From the IMG/VR virus record IMGVR_UViG_3300047319_000683, positions 1-41,317 of that record: a DNA stretch of 41,317 nucleotides; one strand, written 5' to 3'. How positions within the stretch are numbered: position 1 is the stretch's first letter; the number at the start of each line of letters is the position of its first letter. Positions 9 through 40,364 of this stretch are shown one piece after another. Source of the DNA: a virus. Below the pieces are notes generated by a model. It was not told the origin of the DNA. It saw only the letters and a program-made list of their open reading frames with translations, and ran no database searches. Made by a program: the position numbers and the translations under genes.

Positions 9-1325
9 GTGCAGAAACACGGACGCCGTAATACCTATAGCGAACTGTCGCTACCCATCTCCCCGATTGCTGTCTCGCGAGAGAGTTCCGATAAGCCCCC
101 CTACCAGGTGCCGAGCATGGCGGAGATCAGTGCGATTCCGTGGAACGGCTACACGGCTATCTCGACGTTTAGCGGCTGCGGCGGATCTTCACTCGGCTAC
201 AAGCTGGCCGGATTCCGGGTCGCCTGGGCGAATGAGTTCGTGCCAGCAGCTCGGGACACCTACCGGGCGAATGCGCCTGAGACGATCCTTGATCCGCGCG
301 ACATTCGGGAGATTACCCCGGAGTCGATCCTCGCCGCGCTCGGTCTAACGGTCGGTCAGCTCGATGTGCTTGATGGCTCGCCGCCCTGCGCGTCGTTCTC
401 TACCGCTGGCAAGCGTGAGGCAGGCTGGGGCAAGATCAAGACCTATTCCGACACGAAGCAGCGTACCGATGATCTCTTTTTCGAGTACGCGCGACTCGTG
501 CGAGGAATCCAGCCGAGAATCTTCATTGCGGAGAATGTCTCTGGCCTCGTGAAGGGTACGGCGAAAGGGTATTTCAAAGAGATTCTGCGCGAACTTAAAG
601 AGTGCGGTTATCGGGTCGAAGCGCGTTTACTCGATGCGCAATGGCTCGGAGTTCCGCAGATGCGCCAGCGCGTGATCTTCTTCGGCGTGCGCGAGGATCT
701 CGACGCAACTCCCCGTTTCCCGAAGCCGCTACCGTATCGCTATAGCGTGCGCGACGCGCTACCGTGGATCATTGCGCAGGGGGACAATGGTGGCTTTGGG
801 CACGGAAGTCTCCCGGAGACTTCCGTGCCCAGTCCAACGATCGGCGCCGGACCACAGACCGGCAATGGGGCCTACCCCCCCTCGCTGGTGTCCGCGCGTG
901 CCATGAATGACACGCGCGGACAGGCATCCTATAGCATGGGTGATGTGACAGATATTCCTGCTCCATCAATAGTTGCAAGTGGGCACCATCTATGGGTCGA
1001 AGAGGCGAATGGTCTCAACTCGCAAGGACTCGGTCCTGGCGAGCAATCCGATAAGTATTACTCGCTGGTGCGAACTGATCCAGAACGCCCGAGCCCAACG
1101 GTTACCCAGCGCGGGGGTGATGGTGGCGACGCCACCATCACCCATCCGACTGAACGGCGGAAATTCACGATTGCAGAACTCAAACGGATCTGTGCTTTTC
1201 CGGATGACTTCGTGCTGACCGGCACCTACGCCCAGCAATGGGAACGGCTCGGACGCGCGGTGCCACCCTTGATGATGGCAGCCATTGCCGAGCAGGTGCG
1301 TGTAGTGCTGGAGGAGATTCCCTAA
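9..1325 (+). CDS. C5-cytosine DNA methyltransferase with altered motif X; candidate DNA carboxymethyltransferase
   Basis: C5-cytosine DNA methyltransferase. Numbering from the GTG at 9, motif I is FSGCGG (54-59), motif IV is GSPPC with catalytic Cys127, motif VI is ENV (175-177) and motif VIII is QRVIFFG (220-226). The target-recognition region (about 240-380) has repeated PSPT-like units. Motif X reads LGRAVPP, with Arg416 where the family has an almost invariant Asn (GNAVPP). That position is the one I recall being changed to Lys in engineered M.MpeI to accept carboxy-SAM. The frame is open to the window's left edge, so the start may lie upstream; ATG 117 (MAEISAIPWNG) is also plausible and lies just before motif I. 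The stop overlaps the next start (TAATG), and a CmoA gene follows two genes on. Family is certain; use of carboxy-SAM is inferred. An ordinary 5-methylcytosine enzyme remains possible. Confidence 0.93.
   Translation: MQKHGRRNTYSELSLPISPIAVSRESSDKPPYQVPSMAEISAIPWNGYTAISTFSGCGGSSLGYKLAGFRVAWANEFVPAARDTYRANAPETILDPRDIREITPESILAALGLTVGQLDVLDGSPPCASFSTAGKREAGWGKIKTYSDTKQRTDDLFFEYARLVRGIQPRIFIAENVSGLVKGTAKGYFKEILRELKECGYRVEARLLDAQWLGVPQMRQRVIFFGVREDLDATPRFPKPLPYRYSVRDALPWIIAQGDNGGFGHGSLPETSVPSPTIGAGPQTGNGAYPPSLVSARAMNDTRGQASYSMGDVTDIPAPSIVASGHHLWVEEANGLNSQGLGPGEQSDKYYSLVRTDPERPSPTVTQRGGDGGDATITHPTERRKFTIAELKRICAFPDDFVLTGTYAQQWERLGRAVPPLMMAAIAEQVRVVLEEIP
798..830. repeat. Perfect inverted repeat, 16-bp arms, 1-nt centre
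   Basis: The left arm GGGCACGGAAGTCTCC (798-813) and its exact reverse complement (815-830) are separated by one base. It lies inside the coding sequence for the target-recognition region of the C5-methyltransferase, in frame and without a stop. It could form a strong mRNA hairpin or a DNA cruciform. Confidence 0.9.
889..922. repeat. Perfect inverted repeat, 12-bp arms, 10-nt loop
   Basis: The left arm TGTCCGCGCGTG (889-900) pairs exactly with 911-922. This is the second of three perfect palindromes within 350 bp of the methyltransferase target-recognition region. Confidence 0.88.
1115..1143. repeat. Perfect inverted repeat, 14-bp arms, 1-nt centre
   Basis: The left arm GGGTGATGGTGGCG (1115-1128) pairs exactly with 1130-1143 around a single A. 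This is the third palindrome in the same coding region, and its near-zero loop matches the layout of the one at 798-830. Confidence 0.88.
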
Positions 1326-2692
1326 TGTGCGGTATAGCCGGGGGATATGGTGCGGGCCTGGCGCGGATGCTTCCGCTACTCCGCCACCGAGGGCCAGATG
1401 CCGAAGGGTGCCAGCAGATCGGTCCGCTGATGCTGCTCCATACCCGTCTCGCGATCATCGACTGCCACCCGCGCAGTAATCAGCCGTTTACCTATGGACA
1501 GACGACTATTAGCTATAACGGCGAGCTCTGGAATTTCCGCGAGGTGCGGGCTCTCCTCGCGCAGGAGGGCTGCTCGTTCCAGACGAACGGGGATACGGAA
1601 GTTATGGCTGCTGCCCTGGACCGATGGGGCGCGGCGGCGCTCCCCCGATTCGATGGCATGTTTGCTGTGGCCTGGACCAAGGATGGTCAGGAGGTCTCAC
1701 TTGCGCGGGATCGCTATGGCGAGATCCCCCTCCACTGGGCACCGGGGGCCTTTGCCTCGGAACGCAAAGCCCTGCTGGGAATGGGGATCGCGGGACATCT
1801 TATTCAGGATGTCCCGCCCGGTGGTCTCCTCACCCTCTGCCCGTCCGGTGCTCGCATCACGACGTGGTATGCCCTCCCTGCCAGAGAGCAGAGAATCGAC
1901 CGTCTGACCGCAGCGGATCGGCTACGAACCCTGCTGGAGGAGGCCGTCACGGCGCGGCAGATCGCAGATGTCCCTCTCGCTACGCTATTCTCCGGGGGAT
2001 TGGATAGCGCCACCATTGCCGCAATCCTCGTCCGCTCCTTCCCCGGTATCCCGTCCTATATCGCGGTCTATGATCCCCGCTCCCCGGACCTGCGGGCGGC
2101 CCGCATCGGTGCGGAGGCGCTGGGCCTGACTCTGCGGGAGGTCCGCGTTCCATCCCCCACGGCGGACGACCTCGCCGGGGTCGTCCGGGTGATTGAAATG
2201 TCATCAAAGGCTCAGGTCGAGATCGGCTGGCCCTGTTTGGCGCTGGCCCGTGCCATGCAGGCAGACGGCATTCGTGTGATCTTCAGCGGAGAGGGGAGTG
2301 ATGAGCTCTGGGCGAGTTACGGATTCTCCTACCACGGTATTCAGCAGGAGGGCTGGGGGCCGCATCGGCGGAAGCTGATCCGCGCCCAGGCTGCCAAGAA
2401 TTTCGCCCGCTGCAACAAGATTTTCATGGCGGCCGGGATTGAGTGCCGCCTACCGTTCCTCTCCCCGCCATTAGTCGAATATGCACTTTCCCTACCACAG
2501 GCTACCGTGCAGGACCGGGGGCGGCCGAAAGCCGTGCTCCAGGATGCTGTAGGGGACTGGCTCCCCTCCCGTCTGCGGGACCGTCCGAAACTCGCCTTTC
2601 AGGATGGGCTCGGCATGAAGTCTGCTGCTGCCCAGGCCGTGGCCCAGCCGGCCCGTTTCTATCGTCAGGAATATGCCCGCACCTTTGGGTGA
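1325..2692 (+). CDS. Asparagine-synthetase-like glutamine-dependent amidotransferase (AsnB family)
   Basis: Two-domain class II glutamine amidotransferase of 455 aa. The start at ATG 1325 puts Cys2 at the mature N-terminus (MCGIAGG), as this family requires. Glutaminase motifs follow: RHRGPDAEG (20-28), RLAIID (41-46), YNGE and NGDTE. The synthetase domain has the PPi loop SGGLDS (223-228) and SGEGSDE (321-327), whose Glu is catalytic in E. coli AsnB. Known members adenylate a carboxylate and replace AMP with ammonia from glutamine. Length is a little short of E. coli AsnB (about 550 aa). It overlaps the methyltransferase stop and precedes the CmoA-like gene by 15 nt, so I infer that its acceptor is a carboxymethyl group on DNA. 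Making free asparagine, or modifying a tRNA or sugar, are alternatives. Confidence 0.92.
   Translation: MCGIAGGYGAGLARMLPLLRHRGPDAEGCQQIGPLMLLHTRLAIIDCHPRSNQPFTYGQTTISYNGELWNFREVRALLAQEGCSFQTNGDTEVMAAALDRWGAAALPRFDGMFAVAWTKDGQEVSLARDRYGEIPLHWAPGAFASERKALLGMGIAGHLIQDVPPGGLLTLCPSGARITTWYALPAREQRIDRLTAADRLRTLLEEAVTARQIADVPLATLFSGGLDSATIAAILVRSFPGIPSYIAVYDPRSPDLRAARIGAEALGLTLREVRVPSPTADDLAGVVRVIEMSSKAQVEIGWPCLALARAMQADGIRVIFSGEGSDELWASYGFSYHGIQQEGWGPHRRKLIRAQAAKNFARCNKIFMAAGIECRLPFLSPPLVEYALSLPQATVQDRGRPKAVLQDAVGDWLPSRLRDRPKLAFQDGLGMKSAAAQAVAQPARFYRQEYARTFG
1790..1817. repeat. Inverted repeat, 10-bp arms, 8-nt loop
   Basis: GCGGGACATC (1790-1799) pairs exactly with 1808-1817. It lies inside the AsnB-like gene near the glutaminase/synthetase junction. 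There is no T-tract, so it does not look like a terminator. Confidence 0.7.
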
Positions 2693-2707
2693 GGAAGGAG
2701 CCTTCCT

Positions 2708-3427
2708 ATGTCTGCAAGTAGTCTCGGCCATCTTCCAACCGGCGATCACTGGGCATTCGACGCATCGGTTACGGAGGTGTTCGATGATATGCTCACCCGC
2801 TCGATTCCAGATTATCTCGAAATGCGCGCACTCGTGCTGGATCTCGCCTCGCGCTTCCAGCAAGACGGTACCGATATCGTTGACCTCGGCTGTTCGCGTG
2901 GCGAAGCGATGGCCTCACTACTCGCGCGATTCTACGGTCGCAATCGGTTCGTCGGGGTTGAGGTTTCTGAGCCGATGCTTATTGCTGCACGGGATCGCTT
3001 CGCTCGGGAAATCGACCGCGGTCTCGTTGCAATCCAGCATCTTGACTTACGTGAGACCTATCCGCAGGTGAATGCTTCCGTCACGCTCTCGGTGCTGACC
3101 TTGATGTTCGTGCCACTCGAGCATCGGGCGCGCGTCGTTCGCGATATGTACGACCATCTCCTACCTGGTGGCGCACTGCTCCTTGTAGAGAAGATCCTCG
3201 GTTCCTGCCCCGCGCTCGATGAGCGGATGGTTGCATCCTATTACGATTTCAAGCGGCGCAACGGCTACAGTCAGGAGGAGATCACGCGCAAGCGGCTAAG
3301 TCTCGAAGGAGTGCTAGTGCCAGTGACGGCCGCGTGGAATGAGGACCTTCTTCGCATGGCCGGCTTTACGATGATTGACACCTTCTGGCGTTGGCAAAAT
3401 TTTGCCGGCTGGGTCGCGGTTAAATGA
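2708..3427 (+). CDS. CmoA-like carboxy-S-adenosylmethionine synthase
   Basis: Class I SAM-binding protein of 239 aa that aligns with E. coli CmoA (247 aa) over nearly its whole length: WAFDASVTEVFDDMLTRSIP near the N-terminus, SAM motif VDLGCSRGEA (58-67), LLPGGALLLVEK, and FKRRNGYSQEEITRKR (181-196). Arg196 matches CmoA Arg199, the residue that contacts the transferred carboxylate in carboxy-SAM, as I recall. CmoA converts SAM plus prephenate to carboxy-SAM, which CmoB then uses on tRNA uridine 34. No CmoB is present in this window, but a DNA methyltransferase with a basic substitution in motif X lies two genes upstream. ATG 2708 has a GGAAGG-type ribosome site. The stop overlaps terS (ATGA). 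A related SAM methyltransferase is the main alternative. Confidence 0.9.
   Translation: MSASSLGHLPTGDHWAFDASVTEVFDDMLTRSIPDYLEMRALVLDLASRFQQDGTDIVDLGCSRGEAMASLLARFYGRNRFVGVEVSEPMLIAARDRFAREIDRGLVAIQHLDLRETYPQVNASVTLSVLTLMFVPLEHRARVVRDMYDHLLPGGALLLVEKILGSCPALDERMVASYYDFKRRNGYSQEEITRKRLSLEGVLVPVTAAWNEDLLRMAGFTMIDTFWRWQNFAGWVAVK
3393..3406. repeat. 14-bp perfect AT-centred palindrome
   Basis: GGCAAAATTTTGCC is self-complementary. It lies in the last codons of the CmoA-like gene, about 20 nt before the terS start. It could be an operator for the packaging genes or simply coding sequence. Confidence 0.4.
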
Positions 3428-5662: not shown

Positions 5663-5856
5663 TGTGGCGAGTGCTGATTTCCATTGTCGAGGCGCTGGCG
5701 TTGGCCGCGCTGGCGGGCATCTTTGCGGTGCTCGGTTGGTTGGCGGGCGAGCGTGGTCAATGGGGGCAGGTCGTGCTGTGTGTGGTGGTGTTCGGGCTGA
5801 CCACGATGGGCGAACTGTCGGCTATCGCGGATCTGGTGGAGTGGCAACATGCGTGA
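5662..5856 (+). CDS. Small two-helix membrane protein
   Basis: 64 aa with two hydrophobic segments (about 5-27 and 36-54) separated by GERGQWG. It overlaps the terL stop by one base and the neuB-like start by eight bases, so it is co-translated with both. I do not recognise the family. It could be a membrane factor linked to the sugar cassette or a small phage membrane protein of other function. Confidence 0.7.
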   Translation: MWRVLISIVEALALAALAGIFAVLGWLAGERGQWGQVVLCVVVFGLTTMGELSAIADLVEWQHA

Positions 5857-6757
5857 ACTGATGATCGGCGGGCACCGCATCGCGGATGACGAACCGGCCT
5901 TTGTCGTGGCTGAGATTGGCTGTAATCATCAGGGGTCGGTGCAGACCGCTTGTGAATTGATGCGGGCAGCGGCGGAGTGTGGATGCGACGCGGTGAAGTT
6001 TCAGAAGCGCGACCTCGACTGGTGGGCTGAGCGTGATCCGAAGTGGAACGAGCCCTACCACTCCGAGCACGCCTTCGGCCCCACCTACGGCGATCACCGG
6101 GCGGCGTTGGAGTTCGGGGCTGATGAATACGAGTTCCTGAAGCTCCGAGCGGAGAATCTCGGGCTGATGTTCCTGGCGACCGCGTTCGATGTGCCGAGTG
6201 TGGGGTTCCTGTCGGATCTCGGGGTGCCGGCGCTCAAGATCGCCAGCGCCTCCATCGTCAATCGCCCGCTGCTCGAGGCGGCCGCGTTCACCGGGCTGCC
6301 GTTGATCGTAAGCACCGGGGGCGCGACCGTACAGGAGGTTGACGACGCGCAGAGATTGATCTATTACAACCCCCACCATCCTCCATTGGCATTGATGCAC
6401 TGCGTCAGCTCATATCCCTGCGAAGCAAGGGATATGCAGCTCCGTGTGATTGAGAGTCTGAGGGCGTCCTACCCGGAAACTGTCATCGGGCTGTCGGATC
6501 ACTACAGCGGCATTCTGACCGGCCCGCTCGGCTGGATGCTGGGTGCAAGGATCTTTGAGAAGCATTTCACCCTGCATCGGGGCTGGAAGGGGTCCGATCA
6601 AGCCTGGAGCCTGGAGCCGCACGGACTGCGCTCACTGGTGCGGGATCTCAAGCGTACCCGTGAATCGCTCGGGGATGGGGTCAAACGGCGATTGGACATC
6701 GAGGTCGCGCCGTTGGTCAAGATGGGGCGCACGGATTTATTGGAGGTGGCACCCTGA
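5849..6757 (+). CDS. neuB: NeuB-like nonulosonate (sialic acid family) synthase, TIM barrel without SAF domain
   Basis: 302 aa. Motifs run in NeuB order: VVAEIGCNHQGS (19-30), AVKFQ (48-52), ALKIASASI, LIVSTGGAT (152-160), MHCVSSYPC, GLSDHYSG (214-221) and EKHFTL (237-242). The two metal-binding His are His218 and His239. NeuB enzymes condense PEP with an N-acylated hexosamine to make sialic, legionaminic or pseudaminic acid. Family members are about 340-350 aa with a C-terminal antifreeze-like SAF domain; here the chain stops right after the barrel (KMGRTDLLEVAP). It begins inside the small membrane gene, and its stop overlaps a CTG-started cupin gene. The exact sugar cannot be told from sequence. 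Confidence 0.9.
   Translation: MRELMIGGHRIADDEPAFVVAEIGCNHQGSVQTACELMRAAAECGCDAVKFQKRDLDWWAERDPKWNEPYHSEHAFGPTYGDHRAALEFGADEYEFLKLRAENLGLMFLATAFDVPSVGFLSDLGVPALKIASASIVNRPLLEAAAFTGLPLIVSTGGATVQEVDDAQRLIYYNPHHPPLALMHCVSSYPCEARDMQLRVIESLRASYPETVIGLSDHYSGILTGPLGWMLGARIFEKHFTLHRGWKGSDQAWSLEPHGLRSLVRDLKRTRESLGDGVKRRLDIEVAPLVKMGRTDLLEVAP
6411..6436. repeat. Inverted repeat, 9-bp arms, 8-nt loop
   Basis: CATATCCCT (6411-6419) pairs with 6428-6436 inside the neuB-like gene. There is no T-tract. It is another intragenic hairpin like those in the methyltransferase genes. Confidence 0.6.
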
Positions 6758-7155
6758 CGACGATTAGCGCCTATATCCCCCGCACACTGGAGCGGGATTG
6801 GGGAACGGAAGAGATCATTGCCGAGGGGCCCGGGTACTGCGGCAAGATCCTGAAGTACACGGCAGGGAAGGCGGGCGGACTCCAGGCGCATACCTGGCGC
6901 GTGGAATCCTTCCATCTGGTATCGGGCGTTGCCTATGTCGATTCCGATAATGGAGAGGGGAGACTCACACGCATCCGTATGATGGCGGGGCAGACCCTCC
7001 ACATTCCGAGCGGCGCCGCTCATCGCTTCGTGGCGATTACCGATTGTGTGGTGTTCGAGGTGAGCACCAGCGCAGACGCCGACCGCGTGCGGATGGAGAC
7101 CCAGTACGGCGAGTCCGAGGTGGGTGGACTGCCGAGTACGGAGGCATATGCCTGA
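6754..7155 (+). CDS. Cupin-fold protein of the sugar cassette, CTG start
   Basis: 133 aa with a single cupin domain. Motif 1 is GGLQAHTWRVESFHLVSG, with one His of the usual HxH replaced; motif 2 is GQTLHIPSGAAHRF. The N-terminal WGTEEIIAEGPGYCGKIL resembles cupins encoded beside neuA/neuB genes, which may act as sugar isomerases, epimerases or binding proteins. No ATG, GTG or TTG opens this frame before residue 50, but CTG 6754 lies 6 nt after GGAGGT and overlaps the neuB stop as CTGA. That is the same layout as the other coupled starts here, so I prefer CTG. The exact reaction is unknown. Confidence 0.78.
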   Translation: MTTISAYIPRTLERDWGTEEIIAEGPGYCGKILKYTAGKAGGLQAHTWRVESFHLVSGVAYVDSDNGEGRLTRIRMMAGQTLHIPSGAAHRFVAITDCVVFEVSTSADADRVRMETQYGESEVGGLPSTEAYA

Positions 7156-7879
7156 GCGCATCGTGGCCCTGATCCCCGCTCGGGCGGGCAGCAAACGTAT
7201 CCCTGGCAAGAATACCCGCGAACTGGCGGGGCATCCGCTGCTCGCCTATGCCATCGCCGCCGCGCAGGAGGCTGGGATCTTTGAGCGCATCGTGGTGAGC
7301 ACGGACAGTGGGGTGACCAGGGATCTAGCGATCCAGTATGGAGCGGTGGCAATCGCACGTCGCGCGGAACATGCGCAAGATTACAGCCCGGATCTCGACT
7401 GGGTAGAACATGCTATGACTTGGGAGATGTACAACGAGTCGGCCGAGGCCTTCTGCATCCTGCGCCCGACCTCCCCCTTCCGTCGTGGTGAGTGGATCAA
7501 GGCCGCGTGGGACTGCTTCCGCCAGTACGGACGGGCTGACAGCCTGCGCGCCATGCGGCCGGTGTCCGAGCACCCTGGCAAGATGTGGCGAGTCGAGCGG
7601 GTGACGAGCAGCGTGCCGTTGCTGCCGTTCAGCGGGGATCGTGCCCCCTGGCACAGCATGCCGACGCAGGAGCTGCCCCCGGTATTCGTGCAGACCGCCG
7701 CGCTGGAGATCGCGTGGACGCGGGTACTTCCCGACTCCATCAGCGGCAGTGTGGTGCTGCCGTGGGTCTGTGCCAAGGATGACCCAATGGCGCTCGACAT
7801 CAACACGCCCGAGGATTGGGCACGAGCTGAGCAGATGGCGGCCGAGCATCCCGAGTGGCTACCGGAGGTGCGGCGGTGA
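7148..7879 (+). CDS. neuA: CMP-nonulosonate synthetase (NeuA-like cytidylyltransferase)
   Basis: 243 aa. The N-terminal IPARAGSKRIPGKN (9-22) is the nucleotide-binding signature of NeuA/KdsB-type CMP-sugar synthetases. VVSTDS, LRPTSPFR and a C-terminal ALDINTPEDW also fit NeuA/PseF/LegF. The reaction couples CTP to a nonulosonic acid to give CMP-sugar for a glycosyltransferase. ATG 7148 has GGAGG just upstream and overlaps the cupin stop by 8 nt. No NeuC-type epimerase is in the window, so the hexosamine precursor probably comes from the host. Confidence 0.92.
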   Translation: MPERIVALIPARAGSKRIPGKNTRELAGHPLLAYAIAAAQEAGIFERIVVSTDSGVTRDLAIQYGAVAIARRAEHAQDYSPDLDWVEHAMTWEMYNESAEAFCILRPTSPFRRGEWIKAAWDCFRQYGRADSLRAMRPVSEHPGKMWRVERVTSSVPLLPFSGDRAPWHSMPTQELPPVFVQTAALEIAWTRVLPDSISGSVVLPWVCAKDDPMALDINTPEDWARAEQMAAEHPEWLPEVRR

Positions 7880-8229
7880 GGGCAGGGGATCATTACGCGG
7901 TGGATCTAGACGGCGTGCTGGCTCATGCCGCAGACACGCACTATGTGCCTGGGTGGATCGGCCCCCCGATCCCGGCAATGGTGGATCGAGTCAAGGCGTG
8001 GCGCGCGCAAGGGATCCCCGTGGTGATCTTCACGGCGCGGGTGTCGAAAGAGGGGCGATCCCCCATCTGGCGAGAGTATCCCGCCATCGAAGCGTGGTGC
8101 CTGGAGCATCTGGGCGAAGTGCTGCCGATTACCTGCGAGAAGTCGTGGCGCACGGCCCGTATCTACGATGATCGGGCTATTGCCGTGGAGCGAAACACCG
8201 GCCGACTATTGAGTGAGGAGCCTGCATGA
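7876..8229 (+). CDS. Small HAD-family hydrolase
   Basis: 117 aa. HAD motif I is VDLDGVLA (Asp10 and Asp12), motif II region is VVIFTARVS, and motif IV is IYDDRAI followed by VERNTGRLL. This compact form, with IGPPIPAMV and AWCLEHLG between the motifs, is frequent in phage genomes. The start is GTG 7876, seven nt after GGAGG and overlapping the neuA stop (GTGA). In this place it could remove a phosphate from a sugar intermediate, but that is only context. Confidence 0.83.
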   Translation: MRAGDHYAVDLDGVLAHAADTHYVPGWIGPPIPAMVDRVKAWRAQGIPVVIFTARVSKEGRSPIWREYPAIEAWCLEHLGEVLPITCEKSWRTARIYDDRAIAVERNTGRLLSEEPA

Positions 8230-9029
8230 TTACAGCGCGGGAGCGGACCAGGATCTACGACGTGGGGCTGGTGGATTATGAGCCCGCCCACATAGAGATG
8301 TTCCTCGAGCCGGAGAACGCCTACCAGGGGCCGCTCCGTCGTTTGCGGCAGAACTGCTGTGAGAAGGAGCCGTTTACGGTCGCCTTCATCGAGAGCATCC
8401 CCCCGGGCGGCGTGCTGTACGACGTGGGCGCCAACGTGGGCGGCTATTCGCTGGTGGCGGCGGCGCGGGGATTGCAGGCGGTCGCCTTCGAGCCGATCCC
8501 ACAGAATGCAGAGATGCTGCTGGCGAATCTCCAGCTCAACGGCTGGACAGATCGCGTCATCGTGATGCAGCAAGGGCTCGCTACCGTCTCGGGGCTGGTT
8601 TGGGTCCACTACGCCGATACCCGCCCCGGCTCAGCCACCTTTGCCTGGGGCGAGGTGAAGCCGAATCAACGGCCCGGCTTCGGCTGGCACTCGGTGCTGA
8701 TCCCGGTCTCGCCCCTCGATGAGCTGGTGGGGCGCTACCATTTGCCGCCCCCTACGCATCTGAAGATCGACGTCGACGGCAATGAGCAGGCCGTGCTGGG
8801 CGGGATGTCGCAAGTGCTGGCGCTCCCCTCGCTGGTGGGCATCATGATCGAGCTCCAGCCCGACCGAGAAGCCGAGATCGTGGGTATGCTGAACGCGGCG
8901 GGGTGGAGCATTGTCGAGCGGTGGGATGTGCGCAACATCGCCTACGCGCGCCTGGAGCGGGTGGTGGAGGAGCCTACGGCAGAGGAGATCAAGCCCAGTC
9001 GGCGGAAGAATGGTCACGTAAAGAGTTGA
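8226..9029 (+). CDS. FkbM-family SAM-dependent methyltransferase
   Basis: 267 aa. Motif I YDVGANVGGYSL, then AFEPIPQN, and the FkbM hallmark LKIDVDGNEQAVLGGM are all present. FkbM enzymes O-methylate sugars and polyketides. It is the last enzyme of the neuB-neuA cassette and overlaps the HAD gene (ATGA), so methylation of the sugar or glycan is the likely role. The C-terminal tail (VEEPTAEEIKPSRRKNG) is charged and probably disordered. Confidence 0.88.
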   Translation: MITARERTRIYDVGLVDYEPAHIEMFLEPENAYQGPLRRLRQNCCEKEPFTVAFIESIPPGGVLYDVGANVGGYSLVAAARGLQAVAFEPIPQNAEMLLANLQLNGWTDRVIVMQQGLATVSGLVWVHYADTRPGSATFAWGEVKPNQRPGFGWHSVLIPVSPLDELVGRYHLPPPTHLKIDVDGNEQAVLGGMSQVLALPSLVGIMIELQPDREAEIVGMLNAAGWSIVERWDVRNIAYARLERVVEEPTAEEIKPSRRKNGHVKS

Positions 9030-30770: not shown

Positions 30771-31442
30771 ATGCAACGACTCTGGTATCTCCCGCTCATC
30801 CTGCTGCTATTCACCGGCTCCCTGGTCCACGCGCAAGGCTCACCCACCCCCCAGCTCGAGGCCGCGGTCAACGATGCCCGCGCTTCGGTGGGGGTGGCGC
30901 GGCTGCACGTCGACGCTCGCCTCGAGACCTCAGCTCAGGGGAAGGTCGCGCACATGCAGTCTTCGCACTGCTACCTGCCGCGCTGTGTCAACGAGTTCAC
31001 GGCAGCCGAGCGAGCCAATGCGGCGGGCTACCCCGGCGGGTTCGTCGCGGAGCTGCTGGACACCGACCATGCGACGGTGCCGGAGGTGGTCAGCCAATGG
31101 ATGACCGAGGGCAGCGGTGATCGTTTCCTCCTGACGCTCGACCGCTTTACGGATCTCGGTTGTGCCTCGGGCATGGATGGCAGCACCCCGCTGTGGGTGT
31201 GCGACTTCGGGCAACAGACCGGCGGCGCCACCAGTACGCCAATCCCCCCTACGGCCACGCTACAGCCCCTCACAGCCACGTTGACGTCCGTACCGCCTAC
31301 CAGTACCACCGTACCGCCTACGGCTACCATAGGGCCGGATGAGCCGCTCGGGGAGTGCGCGCGGGTGTGGTACGACCCGAATGGCGGATCGGCGGCTCGC
31401 TTCTTCGGGCGGATGACCCAATTCGCCTGCGTGGGATTCTGA
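30771..31442 (+). CDS. Secreted CAP (SCP/PR-1-like) domain protein
   Basis: 223 aa. A signal peptide (about 1-21, ending VHAQ) is followed by a CAP-like domain (LEAAVNDARASVGVARLHVD, then ETSAQGKVAHM and VVSQWMTEG). A Thr/Pro-rich linker (about 152-190) leads to a short Cys-containing C-terminal region. CAP proteins are secreted and bind lipids, cell walls or metals in many organisms; they are rare in phages. Lying between the holin-like and endolysin genes, it may act at the cell surface during lysis or after infection. The linker style is common in Chloroflexota secreted proteins. Confidence 0.75.
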   Translation: MQRLWYLPLILLLFTGSLVHAQGSPTPQLEAAVNDARASVGVARLHVDARLETSAQGKVAHMQSSHCYLPRCVNEFTAAERANAAGYPGGFVAELLDTDHATVPEVVSQWMTEGSGDRFLLTLDRFTDLGCASGMDGSTPLWVCDFGQQTGGATSTPIPPTATLQPLTATLTSVPPTSTTVPPTATIGPDEPLGECARVWYDPNGGSAARFFGRMTQFACVGF

Positions 31443-39546: not shown

Positions 39547-39726
39547 ATGATCTACACGCCGATTCGGGAAGCCAAGGCGGACGTGACCTACTGGCTCGAG
39601 GAGCTCCAGCGCCTGCTCCGGGAGCCGAGCCGGGATTGGCGCTGGCACGAGCGGTGGATGGAAACGCATGAGCGATGGGTGGCGAGTCATGCGCGGTACG
39701 AGATGCTGATGCGGAGGCGCAACTGA
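39547..39726 (+). CDS. 59-aa basic helical protein (unknown)
   Basis: ATG 39547 after ACGGAG. Trp/Arg/Glu-rich helices (LREPSRDWRWHERWMETHER). Its end overlaps the next gene, and GGAGG for that gene lies in its last codons. Not recognised. Confidence 0.58.
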   Translation: MIYTPIREAKADVTYWLEELQRLLREPSRDWRWHERWMETHERWVASHARYEMLMRRRN

Positions 39727-40364
39727 GCTGGCCGTACTACGAGCGCGGCGGCATCACTATCTACCACGGCGATGCGCGTGACATCGTGCCGAGCCTTGAC
39801 TTCGACGTGGTACTTACGGACCCGCCCTACGGGACTGGCCAGAAGATCGCCTATCGCCCGTACAAGGACACGATGGACAACTGGGTGGAGTTGATGGCCT
39901 GGCTGCTCGCCCTGCCGCAGCCGATGGCATTCACGATGAGCCATACGCGGCTATTCGACTTGCCGGTGCGCCCGCAGTGGATGGGCTGCTGGGACAAAGT
40001 ATTTACGGGCGGGATCGTGCATATCGGAGCATCTCCATCTTGGGAGCCGATCTGCTTCTACCACCTGCCAGCGGGCGACCGCGGACGCCCTCGGTGGGAT
40101 GACATCTTCCGCGTGCCCGTAAATGGGCACGCGGAAGGCTTTGTCTCGCAGATGGCTATCGCGCATCCCTGCCCCAAGCCGGTCAACCTCTACCGTCGGC
40201 TAATCGAGGTGCTGCCGGAAGGCGTGATCCTCGATCCCCTGATGGGCTCCGGCACGACCCTGCGCGCAGCGAAAGACCTCGGCAGATCAGCTATCGGCAT
40301 CGACCTATCCGAGGCGTACTGCGAGATCGCTGCCAAGCGATTAGCCCAGGATGTGCTGCTATGA
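39723..40364 (+). CDS. DNA adenine/N4-cytosine methyltransferase (beta-type motif order), CTG start
   Basis: 213 aa. Motif IV DPPYGTG (33-39) precedes motif I-like DPLMGSGTTLRAA with GIDLSE near the C-terminus, the order of beta-class amino-methyltransferases. DPPY favours N6-adenine, but N4-cytosine cannot be excluded. The best start is CTG 39723, five nt after GGAGG and overlapping the upstream TGA as CTGA; no ATG or GTG with a ribosome site fits. No matching restriction enzyme is nearby, so it is probably an orphan used for protection or regulation. Confidence 0.9.
   Translation: MSWPYYERGGITIYHGDARDIVPSLDFDVVLTDPPYGTGQKIAYRPYKDTMDNWVELMAWLLALPQPMAFTMSHTRLFDLPVRPQWMGCWDKVFTGGIVHIGASPSWEPICFYHLPAGDRGRPRWDDIFRVPVNGHAEGFVSQMAIAHPCPKPVNLYRRLIEVLPEGVILDPLMGSGTTLRAAKDLGRSAIGIDLSEAYCEIAAKRLAQDVLL
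40106..40137. repeat. Perfect inverted repeat, 13-bp arms, 6-nt loop
   Basis: CTTCCGCGTGCCC (40106-40118) pairs exactly with 40125-40137 in the middle of this methyltransferase gene. Its right arm (GGGCACGCGGAAG) resembles the left arm of the palindrome at 798-830 in the other methyltransferase gene. Confidence 0.85.

Follow-up and report, generated by a model that had tools for sequence, protein, structure and literature searches.

Introduction

Yang et al. (Nat Commun, 7 December 2025; PMC12783734) described a CmoA-CmoX-CmoY system in Synechococcus phage S-B43, in which CmoA makes carboxy-SAM (Cx-SAM) and CmoX writes 5-carboxymethylcytosine at GC motifs; wild-type SpCmoX was found to accept only Cx-SAM and not SAM. 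The S-B43 CmoY is an asparagine-synthetase homologue that ligates glycine to 5-carboxymethylcytosine, and the virion DNA has the glycyl form (PMC12783734). Protection from restriction was shown solely for the S-B43 enzyme, against HhaI and in vitro (PMC12783734). The same authors surveyed 5,615 CmoX candidates and found 4,257 CmoA genes and 2,251 ligase genes around them; the second largest ligase cluster bears a glutaminase domain, for which ammonia derived from glutamine was predicted as the substrate and no soluble enzyme was obtained (PMC12783734). Here, we describe a viral locus whose ligase is of this glutaminase type.

Results and discussion

Layout and genome setting of the cassette

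The window, that is, the whole stretch of DNA that was analysed, is the complete IMG/VR record IMGVR_UViG_3300047319_000683 (41,317 bases). Three genes, cmoX, cmoY and cmoA, lie head to tail on the + strand at 9-3427, immediately ahead of the terminase genes, with the following features:

9..1325, + strand: cmoX, DNA cytosine-C5 carboxymethyltransferase homologue (PF00145, E 4.5e-56)
387..389, + strand: codon of the catalytic Cys129 of CmoX (S126-P-P-C129; equivalent to SpCmoX Cys98), by alignment
1254..1256, + strand: codon of Arg418 of CmoX (equivalent to SpCmoX Arg350; Asn304 in M.HhaI), by alignment of ERLGRAVPP with ERVGRMVPP
1325..2692, + strand: cmoY, glutaminase type, with a class-II glutamine amidotransferase domain and an ATP-pyrophosphatase (AsnB-like) synthetase domain (PF13522/PF13537/PF00733)
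2207..2221, + strand: codons of the altered aspartate pocket of CmoY, K295-A-Q-V-E299 (AsnB V320-T-T-I-R324), by alignment
2708..3427, + strand: cmoA, carboxy-SAM synthase homologue (TIGR00740, E 4.2e-47)

The cmoX frame (3-1325) is open at the first base of the record and its first in-frame start codon is the GTG at 9; because the frame is open at the record edge, the true start is uncertain and may precede the record. Despite this uncertainty, the catalytic domain is present in full. The ATG of cmoY overlaps the TAA of cmoX (TAATG), cmoA starts 15 nt past the end of cmoY, and at 3424 the 3' end of cmoA runs into the gene for the terminase small subunit. The coordinates thus bear out the original prediction, which had described adjacent genes for a C5-cytosine methyltransferase, an AsnB-family amidotransferase and a CmoA-like protein with this overlap and this gap; all three are intact + strand frames. 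A second contig starts at window base 1361, carries cmoY and cmoA, and is identical across the 8,064 bases compared.

The genome is of the siphophage type. The cassette is followed, in order, by the terminase small and large subunits, portal and head protease, and the siphophage gene order continues with the major head protein, major tail protein, tape measure, endolysin, replication initiator and DnaC-like loader. Several other genes were observed in the window. Between the terminase and portal genes, the region 5849-9029 contains a NeuB family gene (PF03102, E 3.8e-66), a CMP-sugar-type cytidylyltransferase gene (PF02348, E 7.8e-19) and an FkbM methyltransferase gene, which together are a nonulosonic (sialic-like) acid cassette; by tblastn, NeuB relatives are encoded by only 3 of 50,697 phage records. 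Towards the far end of the record, at 39675-40364, lies another DNA methyltransferase gene, this one of the N6/N4 type (PF01555, phrog_67). A CAP/SCP-domain protein (cysteine-rich secretory family) is encoded at 30771-31442, upstream of the endolysin gene.

Comparison with described cassettes

The window resembles S-B43 in that the three homologous genes stand side by side, with an AsnB-family ligase gene and cmoA adjoining cmoX, and in that its CmoX has the SPPC motif and the Cx-SAM-binding Arg. The two loci differ in gene order, which is X-Y-A in the window and A-Y-X in S-B43. In addition, the S-B43 CmoY is a 271-residue synthetase domain that lacks a glutaminase and adds glycine, whereas the window CmoY has 455 residues and a glutaminase domain. 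The domain make-up and the order X-Y-A are the same in gp123-125 of the isolated Streptomyces phage TurkishDelight. This phage has ParB-like genes upstream of its cassette, whereas the window record begins inside or at cmoX; the gene upstream of cmoX is off the record, and ParB (PF02195) was not found in the window. The protein A0A7T0Q3R0 may be that of TurkishDelight. The glutaminase-type CmoY cluster listed under this accession (PMC12783734) has the same domain make-up as the window CmoY.

A reading of the locus as a novel system was rejected, since CmoA-CmoX-CmoY has already been published (PMC12783734). It is instead well supported that the window cassette is a further member of the published system, from the ligase branch whose chemistry is a prediction. 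The original prediction, which held that carboxy-SAM is used to write 5-carboxymethylcytosine and that the AsnB-like enzyme then amidates it, had left open whether such a system had been described; it had, in December 2025 (PMC12783734). This proposal was correct in outline and not new: its carboxymethylation part agrees with the biochemistry of homologues and with the CmoX residues described below, and its amidation part stands as a prediction in the published work (PMC12783734).

Overall, we read the three genes as a CmoA-CmoX-CmoY DNA hypermodification cassette that produces 5-carboxymethylcytosine, amidated to 5-carbamoylmethylcytosine, and give this reading a probability of about 0.8.

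CmoY is a predicted glutaminase-type ligase with an altered aspartate pocket

The window CmoY is 50% identical to TurkishDelight gp124. It shows the traits of a glutaminase-type CmoY, namely joined glutaminase and synthetase domains and neighbouring cmoX and cmoA genes, and it is not a stand-alone synthetase of the glycine type; the glutaminase domain is complete, with the glutaminase Cys at residue 2. An AlphaFold model of the protein (pLDDT 84.3) was most similar to E. coli AsnB (1ct9), with a Z-score of 42.3 and an rmsd of 2.3 over 438 residues, followed by beta-lactam synthetase with a Z-score of about 36.7.

Upon comparison of CmoY with E. coli AsnB (numbered from Cys-1), we found the overall fold to be shared and the catalytic residues to be kept in both domains: C1, R49, N74, E76 and D98 of the glutaminase, and D238, E348, D351, R387 and K449 of the synthetase, including the adenylation residues. 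In contrast, the residues of the aspartate pocket are replaced. In particular, D319, T321, T322, R324 and D384 of AsnB correspond to S, A, Q, E and N in CmoY, and the AsnB stretch D319-V-T-T-I-R324 reads S-K-A-Q-V-E. Mutation of AsnB R325 (numbered from Met-1) is known to affect aspartate binding (PMC12018205), and by our own matching of the sequences this residue would correspond to R324 in the Cys-1 numbering. Because the aspartate pocket is lost while the glutaminase and adenylation residues are kept, and because of the linkage to cmoA, 5-carbamoylmethylcytosine is most likely the product of the cassette. We also consider it likely that the cassette writes this base through a glutamine-dependent amidotransferase acting directly on DNA, with the aspartate pocket rebuilt around Lys-x-Gln-x-Glu.

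An explanation that keeps the same pathway but has CmoY join another amine, such as glycine or another amino acid, with the glutaminase vestigial or regulatory, appears unlikely. The sole CmoY tested does ligate glycine (PMC12783734), and 53 of 80 phage relatives carry Thr instead of E76 (NGT for N74-G75-E76; set L192-L269), so that conservation of the glutaminase site is incomplete. However, the tested CmoY has no glutaminase domain, and the pockets of the two types differ, with the short CmoYs lacking E348, R387 and K449. Moreover, the window CmoY and its relatives retain the nucleophile Cys together with R49, N74 and D98, and the window CmoY also has E76. Among the short CmoY-like ligases, two (L055 and L066) have His or Gln in place of the conserved pocket Glu and may perhaps use another amine substrate.

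Phage CmoY homologues are distinct from bacterial AsnB

In a further comparison, 80 IMG/VR phage relatives of the window CmoY were set against the 80 best bacterial AsnB homologues. K320, Q322, E324 and N384 were present in all 80 phage relatives. The bacterial homologues had R324 in 79 of 80 and D319 in 78 of 80 cases and never had K320; D384 is a less clean discriminator, as N occupies this position in 8 of the 80. The phage set typically shows the pattern xKAQ[VI]E, which does not occur in the bacterial set. The Lys at the first position of the motif was also found in every short CmoY examined and is therefore a mark of the entire CmoY group, where it probably serves the shared substrate, 5-carboxymethylcytosine.

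The co-occurrence of the three genes, which the original prediction had proposed to search for in phage genomes, was evident from the retrieved DNA: cmoA was present at 76/80 and cmoX at 70/80 phage loci, the exceptions lying mostly at contig ends, and neither gene was present at any of the 80 bacterial AsnB loci. These counts indicate that the grouping of cmoX, cmoY and cmoA is not due to chance. At two loci (L264:1313-2695 and L266:6001-7416), a glutaminase-type CmoY with KxQxE is encoded and neither cmoX nor cmoA was found within the limits set by the contig ends. At CmoX-CmoA loci without CmoY, the commonest neighbour cluster was ParB-like, in agreement with the published work, and the next-commonest neighbours, as judged by eye, resemble terminases and other phage genes.

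The window CmoY scores 269.2 bits against the asparagine synthase model TIGR01536, slightly over the cut-off of 267.1, so a reading of the family model alone would name it AsnB, and its overall fold is also that of AsnB. Nevertheless, we regard it as very improbable that the gene encodes an ordinary asparagine synthetase for phage protein synthesis that simply neighbours a DNA-modification pair, because the aspartate-recognition residues are lost, with the change of R324 to Glu seen in every phage relative and in no bacterial control, and the linkage to cmoA and cmoX is almost invariable.

CmoX carries marks of a carboxymethyltransferase and CmoA is a carboxy-SAM synthase homologue

The closest solved relative of the window CmoX is SpCmoX (8YF3, E 9.4e-69), followed by M.HaeIII (E 1.9e-24); the protein is 56% identical to TurkishDelight gp123 and 38% identical to SpCmoX. 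In SpCmoX, R350 contacts the carboxylate of the carboxymethyl group of Cx-SAM (PMC12783734). The SpCmoX residues checked (F25, E47, F48, D69, S95-P-P-C98 and R350) were all kept, with the Cx-SAM contacts F25, E47, F48 and D69 corresponding to F56, E78, F79 and D100 in the window protein. The window methyltransferase therefore has the residues that set CmoX apart from ordinary C5-methyltransferases. M.MpeI N374K, as cited in PMC12783734, is an engineered carboxymethyltransferase in which the equivalent position holds a basic residue that likewise allows a C5-methyltransferase to use Cx-SAM; as cited there, it differs from CmoX in being engineered, in having Lys instead of Arg and in its CG motif.

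We then examined 166 CmoX homologues from IMG/VR and reference phages and found Arg at the position of SpCmoX R350 in 160 of them. The other six comprise two sequences that stop short of this position, one with an apparent frame-shift (L062), and three (L077, L093 and L094) that have Leu or Met and for which the retrieved DNA contains no cmoA. Arg occurred with cmoA in 152 cases and without it in 8, and other residues in 1 and 3 cases, respectively (Fisher p 9e-4, an indicative value, as related sequences were counted as independent). It is possible that L077, L093 and L094 are natural 5mC-writing relatives of CmoX, which would make them useful controls.

The window CmoA matched TIGR00740 over its full length; its score of 160.8 bits falls short of the curated cut-off (193.3), which is set for the equivalog of the bacterial tRNA pathway, and we therefore call it a CmoA homologue rather than a member of the equivalog. 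It matches the CmoA structures 1im8 and 4gek end to end (E about 5e-32) and is 41%, 29% and 26% identical to the CmoA proteins of PaBG, S-B43 and TurkishDelight, respectively; SpCmoA is active although it is just 29% identical to the window protein. An active-site Arg was dropped as a criterion for CmoA, since SpCmoA is active and yet has a residue other than Arg at the site aligned with the Lys-Arg of E. coli CmoA.

Genes for tRNA modification are common in phages, and the family of the methyltransferase is, overall, that of C5-methyltransferases; both points would fit an ordinary SAM-using 5mC writer accompanied by a CmoA that serves tRNA modification or SAM depletion. This explanation is nonetheless most improbable, as Arg418 occupies the Cx-SAM-selecting position for which wild-type SpCmoX is the precedent (PMC12783734), relatives with Leu or Met there have no cmoA nearby, and no CmoB-like gene was seen among the window proteins scanned, a subset of the open reading frames in a scan not specific for CmoB.

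Proposed pathway

In the proposed CmoA-CmoX-CmoY pathway, CmoA would carboxylate SAM with host prephenate to give carboxy-SAM. CmoX would flip out the cytosine of its target motif, Cys129 would attack C6, and the carboxymethyl group would be moved onto C5 while Arg418 holds the carboxylate of the cofactor. CmoY would then use ATP to adenylate the new carboxylate on the DNA, and its N-terminal domain would free ammonia from glutamine, which would attack the acyl-AMP to yield 5-carbamoylmethylcytosine (computed nucleoside [M+H]+ of 285.119). The CmoA and CmoX steps are predicted from the biochemistry of homologues and the conservation of residues. The domain make-up, the catalytic residues, a pocket unfit for aspartate and the gene linkage suggest the use of ammonia and the amide as the product in this phage. 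The modified genome would presumably withstand host nucleases that recognise cytosine in its unmodified or simply methylated form. In a literature search that left out preprints and most subscription journals, we found neither a demonstration of 5-carbamoylmethylcytosine as a DNA base in any organism nor an assay of a glutaminase-type CmoY.

The window CmoY is a candidate for a ligase assay, as its sequence differs from that of the enzyme that failed to express. Lys-x-Gln-x-Glu offers a simple rule that separates glutaminase-type CmoYs from asparagine synthetases, the name given to them by standard models. If the amidation is confirmed, a neutral amide base would join the carboxymethyl route of DNA modification, and glutamine amidotransfer would be extended onto DNA itself.
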